Source: Haloarcula vallismortis ATCC 29715 (lineage in GTDB: Archaea; Halobacteriota; Halobacteria; Halobacteriales; Haloarculaceae). From it: a stretch of 64,000 nucleotides of DNA. A program made the position numbers and the translations under genes. This document shows positions 2,272 to 24,541 of the stretch, in pieces. The stretch spans positions 248,001 through 312,000 of the forward strand of contig NZ_AOLQ01000069.1 of the NCBI RefSeq assembly GCF_000337775.1, read 5' to 3'. Below the pieces are notes generated by a model that was not told the origin of the DNA, made no database searches, and saw nothing but the letters and a program-made list of their open reading frames with translations. The first letter of the stretch is position 1. Every line of letters begins with the position of its first letter.

Positions 2272-3000
2272 TTACGACGATTCGTCCGACCCCGGCTGCT
2301 CGATCGCCGGGATGACGCCGACGGTTGCGGTCGCTTTGAACGAGGCGACAAGCTCTGCGCCCGTAGTGATGTCGAGCTTCTCAAGGCTCGTGTCGGTCAC
2401 GAGTGCGCACAGCGTCGTGTCTGGATCGACAGCCAGCGCGACCAGCGCGATAGACGCGCCTTCCTCTATGTGTTCGACGGTGCCGGCGAACTGATTGCGT
2501 GCGCTCGTCCCTGCCGGTTCGGGCGCTTCCGGCGGTGCGTTCAGTGTCACCGTATCAGCGCGGATACCGACCTCAACGGCGTCGCCGGCGTCGGCGTCCG
2601 TATCGACGATGGCCCGGACCGTCCCCGGCGGCGTCTCGACGGTCGCCAGCTCGCCGTCGCGGTCGACGACGGTCCCCCGGAGGACCGTTTCCGCTGCCGT
2701 CGCTACCCCGTCGAACTCGGCCTGAAGTCGCTGAAACCGGGCCAACAGTTGCTCGGCAGTGTCCGTGAGTTCGCTCCCGCCGCCGCCGCTGCCGCCCCGA
2801 CTGCGGTCGACCAGCGGGCCGAAGGCCGCTTCGAGTTCGACGATGCGCCGCTGGGCGTGGGCGTAGGATCGGCCCAGCGCGTCGGCGGCGGCGTTCAGCG
2901 ACCCGTGGGCGGCGACCGCCTGTAGGAGCGTCCGGTCGCGGGCGGTCAGCGCCACGTCGCCCTGCCCCAGTCGCACTTCGACGTCTGCGGTCGCGTCCAT
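2272..3000 (-). CDS. ModE-like molybdate/tungstate-responsive regulator
   Basis: A 242-residue protein with a LysR/ModE-type winged helix at about residues 15-85 ([29 protein letters not shown]). It is followed by two TOBE-like oxyanion-binding repeats at about 107-150 and 167-232, the second with [11 protein letters not shown] glycine/serine linker at about 68-76 separates the halves. ModE proteins sense molybdate or tungstate with their TOBE pair and repress uptake genes. It is transcribed divergently from tupA with about 120 bases between, which places its likely operator there. Whether it responds to Mo or W cannot be read from sequence. Confidence 0.85.
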
Positions 3001-3088
3001 ACTGCCTCATAACCGTGCCCTCACAAAGGCGTTGCCGCGCGGGGACTGCCAGCCATCCCACTCCGGCGTGGCAGACATCACCATCAAC

Positions 3089-3095
3089 AATTAAG
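3089..3095 (+). promoter_or_regulatory. TATA-like box of tupA
   Basis: AT-rich hexamer-like aattaag in a GC-rich spacer. Its centre is about 27 bases before the ATG at 3120, which would make the transcript leaderless and argues for that start over the ATG at 3114. The spacer also holds the start region of the divergent ModE-like gene, so a shared operator is plausible. None was identified by eye. Confidence 0.45.
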
Positions 3096-3119
3096 AACCC
3101 GGCCGCCGTCGTTATGTCC

Positions 3120-4163
3120 ATGCCGATGCAACGCCGACGGTTCCTCGCATCACTGGGGGCTGTCTCAGTGGTTGGACTCGCTGGCTGTGCTGGCGAGGGC
3201 GACCCCAGCGGCTCGACGGCGACACAGAGCGGTGGCGGGGCGGACGGACAGTCTGGTGGGGCACAGACCGACTCGGGCCAGATCGGCGACGGCGAACTGG
3301 TGCTCGCTACGACAACAAGCACCTACGACACGGGGCTTCTCGGCGCGCTCCATCCCGTGTTCGAGGAGAGCTACGGCGTGACGATGAAGACTATCCCGAA
3401 GGGGACCGGCGCGAGTCTCCGGACGGCACGGGACGGCGACGCCGACGTAATTCTCGTCCACGCCCGCAACGCCGAGGACAAGTTCATGCAGGACGGGTTC
3501 GGCGTCAACCGCCGGGACGTGATGTTCAACGACTTCGTCATCGTCGGGCCGGACGGCGATCCGGCGGGCATCAACGGGATGGATAGCGCCACCGACGCCT
3601 TCACCACCATCGCCGAGCGCGAGTCGACGTTCGTCTCGCGGGGCGACGACTCCGGGACGAACAAGAAGGAACTGCTCGTCTGGGACGAAGCTGGCACGGA
3701 CCCCAGCGGCGAGTGGTATCGCGCCGTCGGCAAGGGGATGGGCGATACGCTCGTACAGGCGAGTCAGACCGGCGCGTACACGCTCGCCGACCGGGGGACC
3801 TATCTCTCGATGCAAAACGAGATCGAGCTCGCGATTCACGTTCAGGGGCCGTTGCAAGGCGGCCCGGTCATCCTCAAGAACCCCTACGGCGTGATGGCGG
3901 TCAACCCCGCGAAATACGACGACGTGAACTACGAGGCGGCGATGGCCTACATCGGCTTCCTGACGAGCCCGACCGGGCAGTCGATGATCGCCGACTACAC
4001 CGCCAACGGCTCGCAGCTGTTCTTCCCGAACGCCATCGCCGAGGAGCCGAACTTCGGCCAGTACGTCCCGCAGGGGTATACGGCACAGCAAGCTAGTAGC
4101 CTCTCACCACGTGACAGAGAGTACCTGTACTGGGTCGACAAGCAAGTCCCGGCGGAGTACTGA
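3120..4163 (+). CDS. tupA: Tungstate ABC transporter substrate-binding lipoprotein
   Basis: A 347-residue Tat-exported lipoprotein. The signal has RRRFLASLG near residue 4 and a lipobox VVGLAGC, followed by a Ser/Gly/Thr-rich linker. The mature part begins with [13 protein letters not shown] and has FNDFVIVGP, the signature of TupA tungstate-binding proteins rather than ModA. It captures tungstate outside the membrane for TupB/TupC. In-frame ATGs at 3114 and 3126 are alternatives; 3120 fits the TATA spacing. tupB follows after 4 bases and the ModE-like regulator is divergent. Molybdate specificity cannot be fully excluded. Confidence 0.87.
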
Positions 4164-6862: not shown

Positions 6863-6913
6863 TACTGGCAAGCGAGCGGGCAGCGGAGAAAACGCTTGTG
6901 TTCTCCCGGCAGG

Positions 6914-7579
6914 TCACGTCCCGGCGCTGACCGGCGTCCACTCGGTCGGCTGGTCGCGCAGCCCTTTGACTCGGAGGTCGAGGTCGCCTGCGTCGGCACG
7001 AACGTCGACCCGGCCGTCGAAGAACTGTGCCACGCTCTCGACGACCTGCTCCTCGTGGGCGTCTGGGTCGAGCACGCAGACGCCGAGGCCGTCGGCGGTT
7101 CCGATTCGGCCGGTGATGGTGTTGAGGAACCGATACACTGCACGAACGTCGTCGCTGTAGACGAGTAGCGGCGTCAGCGTGATGATACCCGTCCGAACCC
7201 GCGTGTAGCCGTTCGCGTATGTCGATTCGTAGTGGCCGGAGTACTCGATACCGATGCCGGTCAGGTCCGCCGGCGTACTGACCGTAGACACGCTGTCGTC
7301 CTGCAGACCGCTGCTCTCCTGTGCGCAGTCGATGACGCGCACCCGGTCACGGTCGAGCACGCCGCCGTACCGCTCGAAGTCCTCTAGCATCGTTGTAGCA
7401 TCGCTGTCCGTCGAGACGAGGACGGTCCCGCCGTCGATGTCGGGGCTACAGAGCAACCGCAGTCCCATCTCTCGTGCGCCGCTCAGAACTGGGCCGGTCA
7501 CGAGCAGACTCGTCCCCAAGTCGACCGGATTCAGCGGCAGTCCGTCGAACCTGTATCGGTCGTCCTGTCGCTGTGACAT
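6914..7579 (-). CDS. Haloarchaeal HTR-like protein (RecA/KaiC-related fold, DUF7504-like)
   Basis: A 221-residue protein resembling haloarchaeal proteins related to RecA/KaiC ATPases that lack a clear Walker A: the expected P-loop position reads LLVTGPVLSGAREMG. The strand-like segments GTVLVSTDSDA and VRVIDCAQ and the ITLTPLLVYSDDVRAVYRFLN stretch are typical. Its ATG is read from the stop of the upstream receiver-GAF gene (4-base-type overlap at 7579), so the two are probably translated together. Such pairs are thought to take part in light or redox signalling, but no function is established. Confidence 0.65.
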   Translation of the reverse strand: MSQRQDDRYRFDGLPLNPVDLGTSLLVTGPVLSGAREMGLRLLCSPDIDGGTVLVSTDSDATTMLEDFERYGGVLDRDRVRVIDCAQESSGLQDDSVSTVSTPADLTGIGIEYSGHYESTYANGYTRVRTGIITLTPLLVYSDDVRAVYRFLNTITGRIGTADGLGVCVLDPDAHEEQVVESVAQFFDGRVDVRADAGDLDLRVKGLRDQPTEWTPVSAGT

Positions 7580-11060: not shown

Positions 11061-12077
11061 ATGGCTTCCAGTCTGTTGGTCGAAGTCGCGATCATCGTCG
11101 CCGCGACGGTCGCGATCTGGAAAGGAAGCGACTGGCTCGAATCGTCGAGCGAACGGCTCGCGACGTACTACGGTCTTCCCGATGTCGTTCAGGGTGCGAT
11201 AATCGTCGCTGTCGGGTCGAGCTTCCCGGAGGTCGCGACCGTCGTCGTCGCGGCGCTTGGCGGGTCGATGCCGCTCGGCGTCGGCGCAATCGTCGGCTCG
11301 GCGATTTTCAATATTCTCATTATCCCCGGAGTCGCGGGCATCGCCACCGACGACGAACTCGAATCGAGTCGGACGCTCGTCTACAAGGAGGCGCAGTTCT
11401 ACATGCTCGCCGTCTCGGTCCTGCTCATCACGATGGCGCTTGCGGTCATCTACTACCCCGGCGAAGCGACGCTTACGGGCGTCATCACGCGGCCGCTGGC
11501 GGCGATTCCGCTCACACTTTACGCACTGTACGTCTTCATCCAGTACCAGGATACGGCCGACCACGACCCGGAAGAGGACTGGACCGCCAGTATCTCAGTC
11601 GGGCGGCAGTGGCTCTTTCTCTTGCTCGGCCTCGCAGTTATCCTCGTGGCCGTGGAGAATCTGGTCCACGCCGTCGGCGTCATTGGCCGGGCTGCCGGCG
11701 TACAGGAGTTTCTGCTCGGCGTGACGATTCTCGCGGCGGCGACGAGCCTCCCCGACACGCTCGTCAGTGTCAGAGCAGCCCGCGACGACCGCGGGGTCAC
11801 GTCGCTCGCAAACGTTCTCGGCTCGAATACCTTCGACCTGCTCGTCGCCATCCCGCTTGGCGTTCTCATCGCCGGCACGTGGACTGTCGACTTTGCGATG
11901 GCTGTGCCGATGTTCGGCGTCCTGACCGGGGCGACGATTCTCCTGTTTACCGTCCTCCGGACTGACCTCGTGCTGAGCGAACTCGAATCGTATGCGCTGC
12001 TTGGCGCTTATGGCGCTTTCGTCGCCTGGGTCATCATCGAGACTGCAGGCTGGGTCGGCGGCGTGTTACCGACCTGA
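11061..12077 (+). CDS. Sodium/calcium exchanger family protein
   Basis: A 338-residue integral membrane protein of the CaCA (YrbG-like) family with about ten transmembrane helices in two inverted repeats. The alpha repeats carry the ion-binding signatures: GSSFPEVATVVVAALGG and GAIVGSAIFNI in the first half, and AAATSLPDTLVSVRAA followed by NVLGSNTFDLLVAIP in the second. The cytoplasmic linker is short, so there is no regulatory calcium-binding domain. Its likely role is Ca2+/Na+ or Ca2+/H+ antiport. The ATG at 11061 is preferred to the frame's first codon at 10971. Confidence 0.88.
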   Translation: MASSLLVEVAIIVAATVAIWKGSDWLESSSERLATYYGLPDVVQGAIIVAVGSSFPEVATVVVAALGGSMPLGVGAIVGSAIFNILIIPGVAGIATDDELESSRTLVYKEAQFYMLAVSVLLITMALAVIYYPGEATLTGVITRPLAAIPLTLYALYVFIQYQDTADHDPEEDWTASISVGRQWLFLLLGLAVILVAVENLVHAVGVIGRAAGVQEFLLGVTILAAATSLPDTLVSVRAARDDRGVTSLANVLGSNTFDLLVAIPLGVLIAGTWTVDFAMAVPMFGVLTGATILLFTVLRTDLVLSELESYALLGAYGAFVAWVIIETAGWVGGVLPT

Positions 12078-15022: not shown

Positions 15023-15733
15023 TCAGTCCGCCGGCGTTGCTGTGACCTCGCCCGAATCCCGCAACAGTTTCGTGGCAAACACCTGCCGCCGGGCGTAGAA
15101 GAAGTACACGTAGGGGACCTTCGCCAGCAGGTCGAGGAACGCGTAGGTGATGCTGACACCGACGTAGGTCGCGAGTCCAAGTCCCTCGGGGCCAGCAAGC
15201 CAGACGAGCGGATACGCAATCCACAGTAGTCCGATATGGTTCTTGAGGAGGCTAAACAGGCCGATACGCTGTGGGTCGTCCGGAACCGAACGGGGGAAGA
15301 CGAGGTACAGGTAGGCAAACAGTGAGACGTGGAAGACTGTCGAGACTCCGAACAGCACCCATTTCAATGTCCCATCAGCGACAACCGCCCCAACGCCGGT
15401 AAGTATCATCAGGGCGTCCGCCACCATGACCCCGAAAATCGCGCGTCGCGACGCGCCGGCTGCATACCCAACAAACCCGACAAGCAGCGGCGTCGTCACC
15501 ACCCAGTCAAGATATCGGAACCCAACAAGCGTCGTCTCACCAATGGTTACGGTGCCAATACCGAACGCCATCGCAACGTATGAAATACCTGCAAACCCAG
15601 GTATAAGCGCCAACGCCGCCAGAATCGACCGCTCCTCGGACCCCTCAAGTGACGCATAGAGGTACCCGACGATAGCGACACCGACCGCAAAGCCCGCAGC
15701 GGTTATGCCGTACACGACTGCAACGGCGTCCAT
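15023..15733 (-). CDS. sopI: Sensory rhodopsin I
   Basis: A 236-residue seven-helix retinal protein. Retinal attaches to K205 in DLLAKVPYVYFFYARR; D201 and the counter-ion-region D76 (YLDWVVTTP) are present. H166, important for SRI signalling, lies in LLKNHIGLLW. The position equal to the proton donor of bacteriorhodopsin is F87, not Asp, so this is a sensor and not a pump. N-terminus MDAVA, SLEGS and KWVLFGVS match SRI, not SRII. SRI mediates attraction to orange light and repulsion from near-UV through HtrI. Its ATG overlaps the htrI stop (ATGA). Confidence 0.94.
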   Translation of the reverse strand: MDAVAVVYGITAAGFAVGVAIVGYLYASLEGSEERSILAALALIPGFAGISYVAMAFGIGTVTIGETTLVGFRYLDWVVTTPLLVGFVGYAAGASRRAIFGVMVADALMILTGVGAVVADGTLKWVLFGVSTVFHVSLFAYLYLVFPRSVPDDPQRIGLFSLLKNHIGLLWIAYPLVWLAGPEGLGLATYVGVSITYAFLDLLAKVPYVYFFYARRQVFATKLLRDSGEVTATPAD

Positions 15734-17319
15734 CAGTCGTCACCCCCAACTGACGGCGACCCTGCGACGCGTCTGTGGCTCGCCGCTGTGGTATCTGCGT
15801 CGACAGTAAACAGCCGCACCCGGGATTCGAGGTCGTCAACCGCGGTTTCGCGGAAGGAATCGAGTGAGTCGGAAATCGACTTGACGACGTCCCGCTGCCG
15901 ACGAATCTGTGTCGACATTTCTTCCGCAGTAGTCGCTGTCTCCGCGCTTGCTTCAGTGACAACCTCTATCGAGTCGGCCGTCGCTTGCACGGTATCAGCC
16001 TGCTCCGAGGTGGTCTGTCGCATCTCCTCGATAGATGCCGAGATGTCGTCGACGGCCTCCGCGATTGTCGCAATTTCCGACAGGGCTGACTCAACGGTTT
16101 CAGTACCAGTTTCGACTCGCGTTTCCGTCGCCTGTATTGAGGCTGTCACCTCTTCTGTCTGCTCAGACACCTCAGCGATGACCGTTGCTATCTCGTCGGC
16201 CCGTGATTGTGTCTCTTCAGCAAGTGACTTGACTTCGTCTGCAACGACGCTAAATCCGTTCCCGTCCGCGCCGCTGCCCTGTCCACCAGCGCGAGCGGCC
16301 TCTATCGAAGCATTCAGCGCCAGCATGTTCGTCTGCTCTGCGATCTCAGAGATGATATCCGCGATGTCCGTTATTTCAGCCATTCGCTCCCGGAGGGTCT
16401 CGACCTGTGTGACAGCTTCAGCAGCATCAGCCTGTATCTGGTCCATCTCCGTCAGGGCTGTTTCCGAGGCTGTCCGAGCGTCGCTACTGGCCTCCTCGAC
16501 CTCACGGCTCCGGTCGGCGAGGTTGTCAATGGTCGCGGCGATTTCCTCTGCTGACGCGCTCACGTCCTGAATATCGACTGCCGCTGATTCGAGTTTTGTC
16601 TGTTGGTCGGTTGCTTGCGTCTGGATATCGGCAACCGTTTCGACAGCCGCGTCTACCTCCTGCTGGACTTGCTGACTTGTTTCGGTAATTTCGTCGGTTT
16701 CGGTCGTAATACGCCCCGAAACGGCAGTCACCGTCTCAATTGTCTCCTGTAGCTCGTCCATCATCCTGTTGAACGACTGGCCGACGGTTTCCATAGCCTC
16801 GTACTCGGTGGCCACATCGACACGCTGAGTGAGGTCGCCGTCTGCGGCGTCCGCCATGACTGTCCCGTACGCTGTTGCAATTTCCTGATAGGCTGTGGCG
16901 AGTTCTCTTGCTTCCTCTTCAGCGGCCTCTGCTTCGGCTTGTGCCTCGTTCGCGTCAATCTGTGCCTGTTCAAGGTCTGCCCTCGCAGCCTCCATCTCTG
17001 ACAGTCGATCACGCAAGGATACGCGCATCCGTTCGATGGAGTCAGCAAGAGCCCCGAACTCGTCGGTCCGCGTCGAGGCGATTTCGGTGTCGAGGTCCCC
17101 GTCTGCGACCCGCTGTGTCTGTGCTGATAACTCGGTGATGCTCGCAACCGTTTCGGCTGCGTTGATCGAGCCGAGCGTCAGTAAGCCGGCGATGCCGGCG
17201 ACGACTGTCGATGCGACATCCTGTGTTACCACGCCGACAGTAACAAGCAGGGCCGCTGTCGCGATGTACCCGACACCGAGCTTGGCCCCATAGCTCTGCT
17301 TGACACTAGAAACAGTCAC
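15733..17319 (-). CDS. htrI: Sensory rhodopsin I transducer HtrI
   Basis: A 528-residue methyl-accepting transducer. Two transmembrane helices (about residues 14-32 and 36-55) with almost no extracellular loop are followed by HAMP segments (about 56-108 and 150-200), long coiled coils, and the kinase-binding hairpin tip EQTNMLALNASIEAARAG (328-345). Lack of a periplasmic domain is typical of HtrI, which receives its signal from SRI within the membrane. The start is GTG 17319, with a TATA-like box 26 bases upstream. It is followed by sopI with a 4-base-type overlap. The 43-residue tail is acidic and variable. Confidence 0.93.
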   Translation of the reverse strand: MTVSSVKQSYGAKLGVGYIATAALLVTVGVVTQDVASTVVAGIAGLLTLGSINAAETVASITELSAQTQRVADGDLDTEIASTRTDEFGALADSIERMRVSLRDRLSEMEAARADLEQAQIDANEAQAEAEAAEEEARELATAYQEIATAYGTVMADAADGDLTQRVDVATEYEAMETVGQSFNRMMDELQETIETVTAVSGRITTETDEITETSQQVQQEVDAAVETVADIQTQATDQQTKLESAAVDIQDVSASAEEIAATIDNLADRSREVEEASSDARTASETALTEMDQIQADAAEAVTQVETLRERMAEITDIADIISEIAEQTNMLALNASIEAARAGGQGSGADGNGFSVVADEVKSLAEETQSRADEIATVIAEVSEQTEEVTASIQATETRVETGTETVESALSEIATIAEAVDDISASIEEMRQTTSEQADTVQATADSIEVVTEASAETATTAEEMSTQIRRQRDVVKSISDSLDSFRETAVDDLESRVRLFTVDADTTAASHRRVAGSPSVGGDD

Positions 17320-18018: not shown

Positions 18019-18794
18019 TACAGCTTGGAGTACTCGTCCTCACTCATCTGCGTGTACGCGTAGTAGCCGCCACCGACCAGTAACAGAAGGACGACGAGTC
18101 CGCCCCCGACCAGCAAGAGCGTTCGCTGGGTCTGTGCGCTCTGCTGGGCCTGCTGTGCCTGATTCTCAGCCTGTTCGGCGAGGTCTTGGGCGTTCTGGAA
18201 GTTTCCGTTTTCGTACGAGGAGATGGCGCTACTGACCAGTTCCTCGGCTTTTTCGTTTCCACCGGCCGCGTCGATTGCAGCCTGTGCGTCGTCAATTGCC
18301 TGTCTTGCTGACTGGCTCTCTTCAGTGTAGTGGTGGGCGGTGTCGTTGCGGAACTCGTCCTCGTTGTTGCCGCTGATTCGGCTGAGCGAGGCGACCTGAT
18401 AGTTCTGTGCCGGGTCGTACGTGTAATTCGAGATGGCCGGCGTCGTGCCGACGAGTTCGACGCGGACCTGGTCACCGTTGTTATCGATCTCCAGATCCTG
18501 TTCGAAGGACTGGTCGCCGTAGGTTTCTTGGCTCACCTGGCTGCCCGCACGCAGTACAGTAACTGTCCAGCTAACGTCCTGGAGTTCGGTCGAGCCGGCG
18601 AGCGTCCACTCGTTTGGCGCGTCGGTGAACGGGTCGTCAATCGTGTACGTCACCGACACCTCTTCCTCAACGGCCGTCTCGGTCGGGACTCCATCGGCAG
18701 AGACAGAGAACGCACTCGCTGTGCCGGCAGTCGCGAGCAAGGCGACAACACAGAGGAGTGCGGCGGTCTTGTTAGAACAGCGGATCAAGTTCAT
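18018..18794 (-). CDS. Secreted, C-terminally anchored protein in the cetZ1 operon
   Basis: A 258-residue envelope protein. Residues 1-28 form a Sec-type signal (AALLCVVALLATAGTASA). A beta-rich extracellular domain spans about 30-150. A Gln/Ala/Glu-rich helical segment, probably coiled coil, covers about 160-225. One transmembrane helix (LLLVGGGLVVLLLLVGGGYYAY) is followed by a short acidic cytoplasmic tail. Its ATG lies inside the 3' end of cetZ1 (23-base overlap) and its stop overlaps cofC. The function is unknown. Operon position suggests a role at the surface linked to CetZ1. Confidence 0.78.
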   Translation of the reverse strand: MNLIRCSNKTAALLCVVALLATAGTASAFSVSADGVPTETAVEEEVSVTYTIDDPFTDAPNEWTLAGSTELQDVSWTVTVLRAGSQVSQETYGDQSFEQDLEIDNNGDQVRVELVGTTPAISNYTYDPAQNYQVASLSRISGNNEDEFRNDTAHHYTEESQSARQAIDDAQAAIDAAGGNEKAEELVSSAISSYENGNFQNAQDLAEQAENQAQQAQQSAQTQRTLLLVGGGLVVLLLLVGGGYYAYTQMSEDEYSKL

Positions 18795-19953
18795 CTTCGT
18801 CGTCTTCGACCAAGTCCTCTAAGTTATCTTCGCTTTGGTTACGGATATCGTCGATGTTGTCCTGGGCCTCGATGGCGACCTGCTGGAGTTCCTTGATTCG
18901 CGGAACGTTGTGGACGCCAGCCAGCAGGATGGATGCAGCCACCTTCGGGGCGTTGGTCGGATAGTCGCCACCGCGGACCTCCATCGAACCAGTCTGCTCC
19001 TCGAGCCACTTCCGGCCGCGCTCTATGCCCTTCCGGTTCAGATGCTCCGGCGGGCCGGCCATCACGAGGAGCGCGCGCTCCGCGCCTTCGATCTCACAGG
19101 GGAGCGTCAGCCGCCCGAGCGCGGCTTTCCGGACGAGCGACGTGATACGGTTCGTCGTGTTGGCCGTATCCATCCCGTCGTCGGAGGAGTCGTCGCCCTT
19201 GAACCGCGAGAGCAGGCCGCCCCCGCCCGAGGATACTTCGACATCCTCGGAGGCGTAGCCGACGGTGGAGACGCCGCCGCCGTCAAGCGTGTTGATGATC
19301 TCCGAGGAATCGACGACGCTCTCGGCGACGTTGTCGCCGGCCTCGATCTCACCGGCCCCGAACAGCACGCCGAAGCGCCGGACGATTTCCTCGTTGATGT
19401 GGTCGTAGCCGCCCTCGACGGACTCGCCGGTCTGTCGCCAGGCGTCGTTGTCGAACACCATGAGGTTGTCCACCTCGCGCACGAACGTCTGGAACGAGCG
19501 AGCGGCGTTGAGGGTGTAAATGCCACCCTCGTCGCTGCCCGGCAGGACGCCCAGGCCGTACACCGGTTCGGTGTAGATGCGCTTGAGGTGTTTCGCGACG
19601 ACCGGCGAGCCGCCCGACCCCGTTCCGCCGCCGAGACCGGCGACGATAAGGAAAGCGTCGACTTCGTGGACAGGGATGTTGTCGATCGCACCCTGTACCT
19701 CGTCGATGTCCTCTTCGGCGATTTCCGCGCCGAGTTCGTTGTCCGCGCCCACGCCGTGGCCCTTGACGCGGGCCTGGCCGATGAGCACTCGTTGTTCTTC
19801 CGGAATGTGTTCTAGCCCAAGCAGGTCTGCTTTTGCTGTATTGACTGCAACAGCCGAGCGGACGATTCCCGAGCCGGTTTCCTTGTCGTACTCGAGGAAT
19901 TTGTCCACAATTTTGCCACCGGCCTGCCCGAAGCCGATCATCGCCAGTTTCAT
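18772..19953 (-). CDS. cetZ1: Tubulin/FtsZ-like GTPase CetZ1
   Basis: A 393-residue CetZ cytoskeletal GTPase. MIGFGQAGGK opens the GTPase fold, GGGTGSG (residues 108-114) is the tubulin signature loop, and FDNDAWRQ carries the catalytic-interface region. Residues about 250-275 (SSGGGGLLSRFKGDDSSDD) are a flexible insert, and the C-terminus is an acidic tail ending DELDPLF. CetZ1 in Haloferax controls rod shape and motility. It heads an operon with the secreted protein and cofC, as I recall from other haloarchaea. Both genes after it overlap. Confidence 0.92.
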   Translation of the reverse strand: MKLAMIGFGQAGGKIVDKFLEYDKETGSGIVRSAVAVNTAKADLLGLEHIPEEQRVLIGQARVKGHGVGADNELGAEIAEEDIDEVQGAIDNIPVHEVDAFLIVAGLGGGTGSGGSPVVAKHLKRIYTEPVYGLGVLPGSDEGGIYTLNAARSFQTFVREVDNLMVFDNDAWRQTGESVEGGYDHINEEIVRRFGVLFGAGEIEAGDNVAESVVDSSEIINTLDGGGVSTVGYASEDVEVSSGGGGLLSRFKGDDSSDDGMDTANTTNRITSLVRKAALGRLTLPCEIEGAERALLVMAGPPEHLNRKGIERGRKWLEEQTGSMEVRGGDYPTNAPKVAASILLAGVHNVPRIKELQQVAIEAQDNIDDIRNQSEDNLEDLVEDDEDELDPLF

Positions 19954-23932: not shown

Positions 23933-24308
23933 TACACCAGTATAGGCCACAGACGTGCAAAAGCGCGTCGTGTCCGGGCCCTCTCTGTTCGAACCATCTG
24001 TCAGTACCGCACCCGAATCTGTGACCGACACAGCTGTCGCACACCCAGACCACGTCGGACTATCGAGTGTGTCACAGATGAGCGGGCAGCGGTACACCAT
24101 GTGGAATCTGTGGCCAGCTAACCACAAGCCACAGCGGCCGGTGAACAGCGACTCCGACCACGCTCGCATCGCTTCTCGTGTTCACTCGTCGCAGAATGCG
24201 AGGGATGGGATTCGAACTCGACTGCAAACGCTCGCAGGGCTCGCGTTTCCGTCGTTCGAATCGCCATCAAAACGGTTCACACGCTCTCACAGCGTTCGAG
24301 CGATTTCA
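23933..24308. other. Intergenic stretch with tRNA-derived duplicate
   Basis: No convincing gene is present. Open frames here are shadows, including one produced by reading through tRNA-like sequence. The region contains a 22-base copy of the tRNA-Leu 3' end (24196-24217), about 112 bases from the functional copy. No integrase or transposase remnant was recognised in it. Confidence 0.6.
24196..24217. repeat. Duplicate of the tRNA-Leu 3' end (att-like)
   Basis: The bases ATGCGAGGGATGGGATTCGA and the two that follow (AC) at 24196-24217 match 24308-24329 exactly over 22 bases. That region holds the discriminator, 3' acceptor strand and part of the T arm of tRNA-Leu. The two copies are in direct orientation 112 bases apart. 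This is the footprint expected from integration at a tRNA 3' end; the DNA between is far too short to be an intact element. Confidence 0.6.
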
Positions 24309-24393
24309 TGCGAGGGATGGGATTCGAACCCACGGACCCCTACGGGAGCGGGTCTTAAGCCCACCGCCTTTGGCCAAGCTTGGCTACCCTCGC
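24309..24393 (-). tRNA. tRNA-Leu (anticodon TAA)
   Basis: The minus strand folds as a class II tRNA of 85 bases. The acceptor stem pairs GCGAGGG with CCCTCGC, there is a long variable arm around CCCGTAGGGG, and a T arm with GGTTCGAATCC. The anticodon loop CTTAAGA has anticodon TAA, reading UUA. CCA is not encoded. No intron is seen. The 3' end is duplicated about 112 bases away. Confidence 0.95.
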
Positions 24394-24541
24394 GCAGATT
24401 GAACTCTGCGGGGGCTAGTGAATGGTCCTTTCGGTCTTGGACTGTGAGTGGGGCCATCGTGTCTTGTCACAGTCTGGCCGGTGAGGGTCGATAGCGACCG
24501 TGACCCACCGGTCTGGCTGTCACTGCCTCCGACACCAATCT

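Follow-up and report, generated by a model that had tools for sequence, protein, structure and literature searches.

What does a partial copy of a tRNA gene represent when it stands a short distance behind the intact gene? The question arises at the tRNA-Leu(TAA) gene of Haloarcula vallismortis, which lies at 24309..24393 on the minus strand of the window, the stretch of 64,000 nucleotides analysed here (ARAGORN; RF00005, 51.7 bits). A direct repeat of 22 bases, ATGCGAGGGATGGGATTCGAAC, occurs at 24196-24217 and 24308-24329, its two exact copies being 112 bases apart. Both copies were located as a sequence-only reading had reported them, and a chance match is ruled out by shuffles: the 21-base core of the repeat, with up to 3 mismatches allowed, is matched twice in the window and 0.00 times in shuffled sequence (n=100). 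The gene bounds given by ARAGORN confirm that the repeat is the tRNA 3' end, comprising the T-loop, the 3' strand of the T-stem, the 3' strand of the acceptor and the discriminator, with one base beyond; the tRNA end proper, 24309-24329, is the first core. When a 20-mer was searched for in the whole window genome with up to 2 mismatches, the only match besides both repeat copies was C65:298005 (2 mismatches), which is inside tRNA-Leu(CAA). Elsewhere in the window two minus-strand open reading frames were noted by eye, one at 15023-17319 that looks like a sensory rhodopsin and adjoins a transducer-like frame, and one at 18772-19953 that looks like a CetZ/tubulin-like protein.

The 112-base unit that follows the tRNA gene opens, on the tRNA strand, with a 40-nt hairpin 1 and an inverted arm, and continues with a 36-nt hairpin 2 and the core, GTTCGAATCCCATCCCTCGCA. 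All of its parts are on the minus strand, and the hairpin modules were delimited by splitting the unit and by DNA folding. The hairpin-1 module (24269..24308) has a stem with a GAAC..GTGA motif. The inverted arm, GATGGCGATTCGAAC (24254..24268), corresponds, apart from one extra base, to core bases 1 to 14 in reverse complement, at an edit distance of 1. This inverted copy of the T-arm, situated between both direct copies, was absent from the sequence-only reading. The hairpin-2 module (24218..24253) is of class I, ACGGAAACGC..GCGTTTGCAGTC, with an apex loop CCT and tandem G.A mismatches. The second core (24197..24217) equals the tRNA 3' end in 21 of 21 bases and terminates the unit. The next 140 bases (24057..24196) are chromosomal flank, with an identity of 0.84 to the sequence that adjoins the tRNA in a unit-free relative (L027). 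The window unit has no gene, its approximately 112 bases being taken up by the two hairpins and the core.

In both DNA and RNA folds hairpin 2 is enclosed by a pairing of the inverted arm with the core. The folding energy of the window unit is -27.8 kcal/mol as DNA (z -4.58) and -43.9 kcal/mol as RNA (z -3.48), and in either form 0 of 200 shuffles folded as well. The opposite strand folds worse, with z -2.49 as DNA and z -2.33 as RNA. A covariance model of such units, R1, matches the window at 24197-24271 with 82.5 bits. In an Rfam scan of 24100-24450 the tRNA alone was above gathering score, and the unit matched no other family.

The same tRNA gene was compared across the genus, four named Haloarcula species included, with one genome per species. 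A pattern search gave a match in 26 of 32 genomes, and these 26 loci, the window genome among them, were read. Further core copies number none at 9 loci, one at 11, two at 4 and three at 2; at one of the three-copy loci a copy lies at 801 bases. A filled site has one unit more than an empty one. In seven of eight filled/empty pairs, the flank past the last core has an identity of 0.60 to 0.88 to the empty flank, whereas the sequence directly after the tRNA reaches just 0.16 to 0.22 (for instance 0.88 and 0.21 for L012 against L030, and 0.84 and 0.19 for L008 against L027). The eighth pair, L020 against L033, behaves in the opposite way (0.31 after the last core, 0.58 directly after the tRNA), and it is among the three of eight comparisons in which flank identity is 0.65 or lower. 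Behind several tRNAs that lack a full unit there is sequence that by eye looks like the remains of a hairpin 1 with its inverted arm, so that an empty site is not necessarily one that was never filled. The presence or absence of units as blocks between otherwise similar flanks, together with arrays of 1 to 3 units, supports recombination at the tRNA 3' end. To this extent the integration scar suggested by the sequence-only reading holds; as a one-off scar it does not.

The arrangement found at tRNA-Leu(TAA) also occurs behind other tRNAs and in other species, which the earlier reading had not noticed. RF00005 has 67 matches in the window genome, 25 of them in one array and 42 elsewhere. The array (L088, G000:C4:254165-257733), with its 25 tRNA matches on one strand within 3.6 kb, resembles a viral tRNA array. 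A copy was counted when the last 20 bases of a tRNA recurred within 1 kb with up to 4 mismatches. By this measure 9 of the 42 non-array tRNAs have a downstream copy and 0 of 42 an upstream copy, one of the 42 being near a contig end with 57 downstream bases only; tRNA-Gln(CTG), missing from the RF00005 list, has an exact copy in addition. In G063, a genome of another family, the corresponding counts are 23/44 and 0/44. Unit length has a median of 112 in a set of 72 units (10th to 90th percentile, 104 to 174).

These 72 units represent 17 isoacceptors and 23 core types. The mean edit distance of the inverted arm is 2.29 to its own tRNA and 3.71 to the cores of other tRNAs. No permutation reached this fit, neither among 2000 nor among 500 in which each core type was represented by one unit. 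Because many of the loci had been picked by a model that contains the arm, the test was redone on units of G063 picked by the direct copy alone; the distances for these 31 units are 2.19 (own) and 3.66 (other), again with 0 of 2000 permutations as good. By this measure the inverted arm of a unit fits the tRNA behind which the unit stands. When 18 stems were aligned (A1, from which L032 and L015 of 20 were left out), 95.4% of the cells are paired and 9 pairs are changed on both sides. The covariation score is 0.402 compared to 0.179 for shuffled alignments (0/500 as good) and at most 0.065 for slid ones, in a structure derived from the same alignment.

The two hairpins vary nearly independently of each other. 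For the loop and module analyses the set was reduced to 71 units by dropping L048, which spans another tRNA in an array. Across the 2485 pairs of these units the similarities of hairpin 1 and hairpin 2 are correlated with r 0.19. Hairpin 2 is alike at 0.90 or more while hairpin 1 is below 0.60 in 41 pairs, 35 of them between different isoacceptors, and four pairs show the reverse, with hairpin 1 at 0.85 or more and hairpin 2 below 0.60. An identical 36-base hairpin-2 module stands behind tRNA-Glu and tRNA-Arg of different genera. From this near-independence, it is probable that pieces were exchanged at the inverted arm. Sorting the 71 units by loose text patterns gave 38 class I-like, 23 class II-like, 2 both and 12 neither, a division that was not counted as evidence.

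The apex of hairpin 2 bears on the form in which the unit folds. GNA loops with G-C pairs are very stable DNA mini-hairpins (PMC4686876). The apex N-C(GNA)G-N' is present in 46 of the 71 units, where dinucleotide shuffles have 10.5 and genomic windows 5.7, and the C(GNA)G apex with GA flanking it on both sides is present in 31 of 71 against 0.05. In the G063 set, of which L142 is also a member and was for that reason removed from the first set when the two sets were compared, the C(GNA)G apex occurs in 21 of 31 units against 2.4; the opposite strand has it in 3 of 31. Loops of the RNA type GNRA are not enriched in the G063 units (1 against 1.2 expected). The enrichment of C(GNA)G on the tRNA-sense strand indirectly favours a unit whose tRNA-sense strand folds as DNA, although the window unit itself has the loop CCT in hairpin 2 and not GNA.

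At E<=0.001, R1 matched 127 of 145 Halobacteria genomes and 50 of the 58 genera of the class, counts in which weak matches are possibly due to chance and the groups compared differ in base composition. R1 also undercounts, since only class I stems were modelled. Among 119 genomes drawn from the phylum, 22 are of this order and 19 of these matched; none of the other 97 did. Twenty-nine of the R1 loci were read (L124-L152), and 25 of them follow a tRNA that has a further copy of its own 3' end downstream.

Several searches were directed at the enzyme that might move such units. Integrase domains (PF00589) are present in 21 of 21 genomes tested, 9 of them unit-rich and 12 without a match to the model, and are not discriminating because all 12 of the latter have them too. 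The Y1 transposase (Y1_Tnp, PF01797) has 0 matches in the unit-rich genomes G063 and G115, and none in four genomes without an R1 match. The sequence-only reading had proposed to look in relatives for elements integrated at this tRNA-Leu; in the 20 kb downstream of tRNA-Leu(TAA) in six relatives there is no match to PF00589, a model that is not IntI-specific. Among 40 integrase-centred loci (L161-L200), which are a part of the integrase matches, two have an R1 match, in both cases on tRNA-linked units; a class II unit behind tRNA-Lys at a further locus, L170, was missed by R1.

Proviruses do occur at the same tRNAs. In G018 (L184, 4511-10661) a provirus-like element of 5.9 kb with an integrase is situated between tRNA-Gly(CCC) and a unit. 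Its att is longer, more than 40 bases, its arms are unlike those of a cassette, and the unit sits past its right att copy, which implies that the unit was there earlier or is separate. In G079 (L158, C14:8000-27000) a 155-base exact direct repeat, at about 6892-7046 and 11820-11974, consists of the 3' half of tRNA-Glu(CTC) and a unit; the repeats bracket 4.9 kb with a partial integrase frame, and weaker similarity continues for about 40 bases further. Given these two cases, proviruses may carry units. At G000:C65 an integrase frame ends about 120 bases before a unit. It was considered as an autonomous integrase-borne element and rejected: the unit has decayed, its inverted arm is similar to the core of tRNA-Val, and it was probably displaced. 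A tRNA-free unit in G161 (L159) was likewise considered as an insertion at a secondary site. This was dropped, as 13 bases at its left edge fit the 3' end of tRNA-Arg(TCT), and the gene of that tRNA lies some 13 kb upstream within the stretch that holds the unit; no empty site for it was found in the genus, and the unit was perhaps displaced by a later insertion. Two further loci were recorded in passing. At L160 (G001:C50, 9033-10166) the unit of tRNA-Arg(TCG) is repeated about 1 kb away, near-identical and with a short core piece in front, and at L224 (Natrinema thermotolerans CP031304.1, about 2920-3170) a tRNA-Glu-like gene with extra mid-sequence, not called by ARAGORN, is followed by a unit.

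Viral and plasmid sequences yielded few traces. The exact 21-mer core is found in 10 IMG/VR stretches, most of them tRNA-Leu genes, whole or in part, of a different kind, with no haloarchaeal unit among them. Patterns for the ends of hairpin 2 gave 8 unrelated stretches and 0 in IMG/VR, and class-specific patterns gave 0, 0 and 0. By blastn the window unit has no match in plasmids and phages, and a tRNA-Glu unit has two haloarchaeal plasmid records and no phage.

Known systems of several kinds resemble the units in part. In integron attC cassettes a variable, covarying stem is enclosed by two inverted core sites, and the cassette is used in the form of a folded single strand; each insertion repeats the core, and the cassettes form tandem arrays. 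The units have inverted core sites around a variable covarying stem, the core repeat and the tandem arrays as well. They differ from integron arrays in that they carry no gene, in that the anchor would be a tRNA gene, and in that the core is tRNA-specific; nor did the PF00589 search downstream of tRNA-Leu(TAA) in the six relatives reveal an adjoining integrase gene. At tyrT of E. coli, 178-bp tandem repeats with the rtT RNA each carry the tRNA 3' end, which is a further resemblance. To our knowledge, these repeats have no inverted tRNA arm and are not spread over many tRNAs. The IS200/IS605 layout places a hairpin near the end of the element, a guide stretch before it and a cleavage site after it. 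Such an end hairpin with a guide/cleavage layout, and the proposed movement as a single strand, are the points of likeness to IS200/IS605 elements and PATEs, from which the units are set apart by the missing Y1 transposase in G063 with its 31 units (and in G115), the long target repeat and the strict siting at tRNAs.

SMR-A of Haloquadratum walsbyi is gene-less, about 110 bp long and sited in palindromic targets, namely IS605-type transposons and PATEs; it has terminal inverted repeats and no target duplication, and its mobilisation is described as unknown (PMC3119063). The units share with it the haloarchaeal host, the length of about 110 bp, the lack of genes and the palindromic targets. Judged by the same description, however, they are unlike SMR-A in standing behind tRNAs and not in a PATE or IS605 palindrome, in repeating 20-odd tRNA bases and in having arms that vary with the tRNA. 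Proviruses and ICEs at tRNA genes leave as a scar, behind the intact gene, a second tRNA 3' end (PMC9897764, PMC8371274), and such a direct copy is what the units display. Those scars bracket kilobases, whereas the unit is about 112 bases long, includes an inverted arm and stands 0 to 3 in tandem (PMC9897764, PMC8371274). As for arms on intact integrase elements, the two matched loci of the 40 are both tRNA-linked, one element is situated between two units and one provirus has unlike arms. None of the described families accommodates the units, SMR-A being the nearest in size and taxon as judged by its description. They belong with the short non-coding palindromic repeat elements and look like an undescribed family of tiny movable cassettes. 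In a literature search by title and abstract that covered few subscription journals, no paper described such units behind haloarchaeal tRNAs.

As read from the genomes, the units have the plan core, hairpin 1, inverted arm, hairpin 2, core. Their arms match the tRNA, their stems covary and their modules are reshuffled; they stand in arrays of 0 to 3, and sites occur both filled and empty. We give an even chance to the reading that they are gene-less cassettes put in at tRNA 3' ends by site-specific recombination, probably as folded single-stranded DNA. A recombinase would join the cassette to the tRNA 3' end, the tRNA staying whole and the core being repeated on the far side. The tRNA-sense strand would fold as single-stranded DNA into a long hairpin, the recognised form, and the inverted arm would set which tRNA fits. 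Recombination between cores and at the inverted arm would add, remove and reshuffle units. The likeliest class of enzyme would be a tyrosine recombinase acting in trans, from a provirus or the host. Neither a circle nor an excised cassette nor a change between strains was seen in these data, which have a single genome for each species, and none of the enzymes searched for could be linked to the cassettes. Also weighing against this reading are the unlike arms and longer att of the provirus at tRNA-Gly(CCC), the CCT loop of the window unit, its better-than-shuffled RNA fold, the 9 of 26 Haloarcula loci that lack a further core, and the three filled/empty pairs of low flank identity, L020 against L033 among them.

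Four other explanations have been weighed. The 3' ends of tRNA genes are classical att sites, and a unit might be what is left of a larger integrative element that lost its body, its left and right attachment arms now joined. The 4.9-kb stretch of G079 between its 155-base repeats, with a partial integrase frame, and the integrase frame about 120 bases before the decayed unit of G000 both fit this explanation. It is nevertheless unlikely, and the remnant of one large deleted element that the sequence-only reading had in mind is disfavoured with it, because the length is near-fixed and the plan fixed at many tRNAs, and because only two of the 40 integrase-centred loci have a model match, both tRNA-linked. 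The unit past the right att copy in G018, the 20 kb without an integrase match downstream of tRNA-Leu(TAA) in six relatives and the lack of hairpin-2 motifs in the IMG/VR scans also speak against it. The decayed second tRNA, the other possibility named at the outset, is refuted. The far copy does hold T-arm and acceptor sequence, but a D/anticodon half is missing, the place being taken by two hairpins and an inverted arm that is foreign to tRNAs; in none of the 26 loci did ARAGORN call a second tRNA-Leu(TAA), and the same plan recurs at many other tRNAs. Remains of a tandem tRNA-Leu gene are thus extremely improbable.

The unit could also be a candidate RNA that is transcribed with the pre-tRNA and folds as its trailer or is released as a small RNA, like the rtT repeats. 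Its sense orientation directly behind tRNAs, the covarying stems and the RNA fold of the window unit (z -3.48, 0/200 shuffles as good) would suit such a role, which is distinctly unlikely in view of the patchy presence at the same tRNA among related species, apex loops that obey the DNA rule GNA with GNRA tetraloops near background, and the lack of any Rfam family except tRNA at gathering score. Very unlikely, finally, is an origin by replication slippage and template switching at the T-arm without a recombinase, the match of the arms to the tRNA being preserved by repair templated on the hairpin. The T-arm is a palindrome in its own right, copying by fold-back could yield the order direct-inverted-direct, and unequal exchange could grow tandem units. 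Local copying, however, fails to explain the identical 36-base hairpin 2 behind tRNA-Glu and tRNA-Arg of different genera, and copies upstream of tRNAs, 0/42 in the window genome and 0/44 in G063, are missing.

The insertion of gene-less cassettes can be extended, tentatively and as a somewhat unlikely whole, to a tRNA-anchored cassette system of the Halobacteria. In such a system the tRNA 3' ends would be the fixed platform, gene-less cassettes would move as folded single-stranded DNA, the inverted arm would be the base-pairing address that chooses the tRNA, and proviruses on the same tRNAs would pick up and carry cassettes. If the cassette reading is true, an unnamed family of mobile or recombinogenic palindromes, with arms that track the tRNA, stands behind many haloarchaeal tRNA genes, about half of them in one genome. 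It would explain partial tRNA copies that are otherwise taken for provirus scars, and would show tRNA genes staying intact under repeated use as insertion sites. It would also provide a natural system for single-stranded DNA recombination specified by base pairing in archaea.
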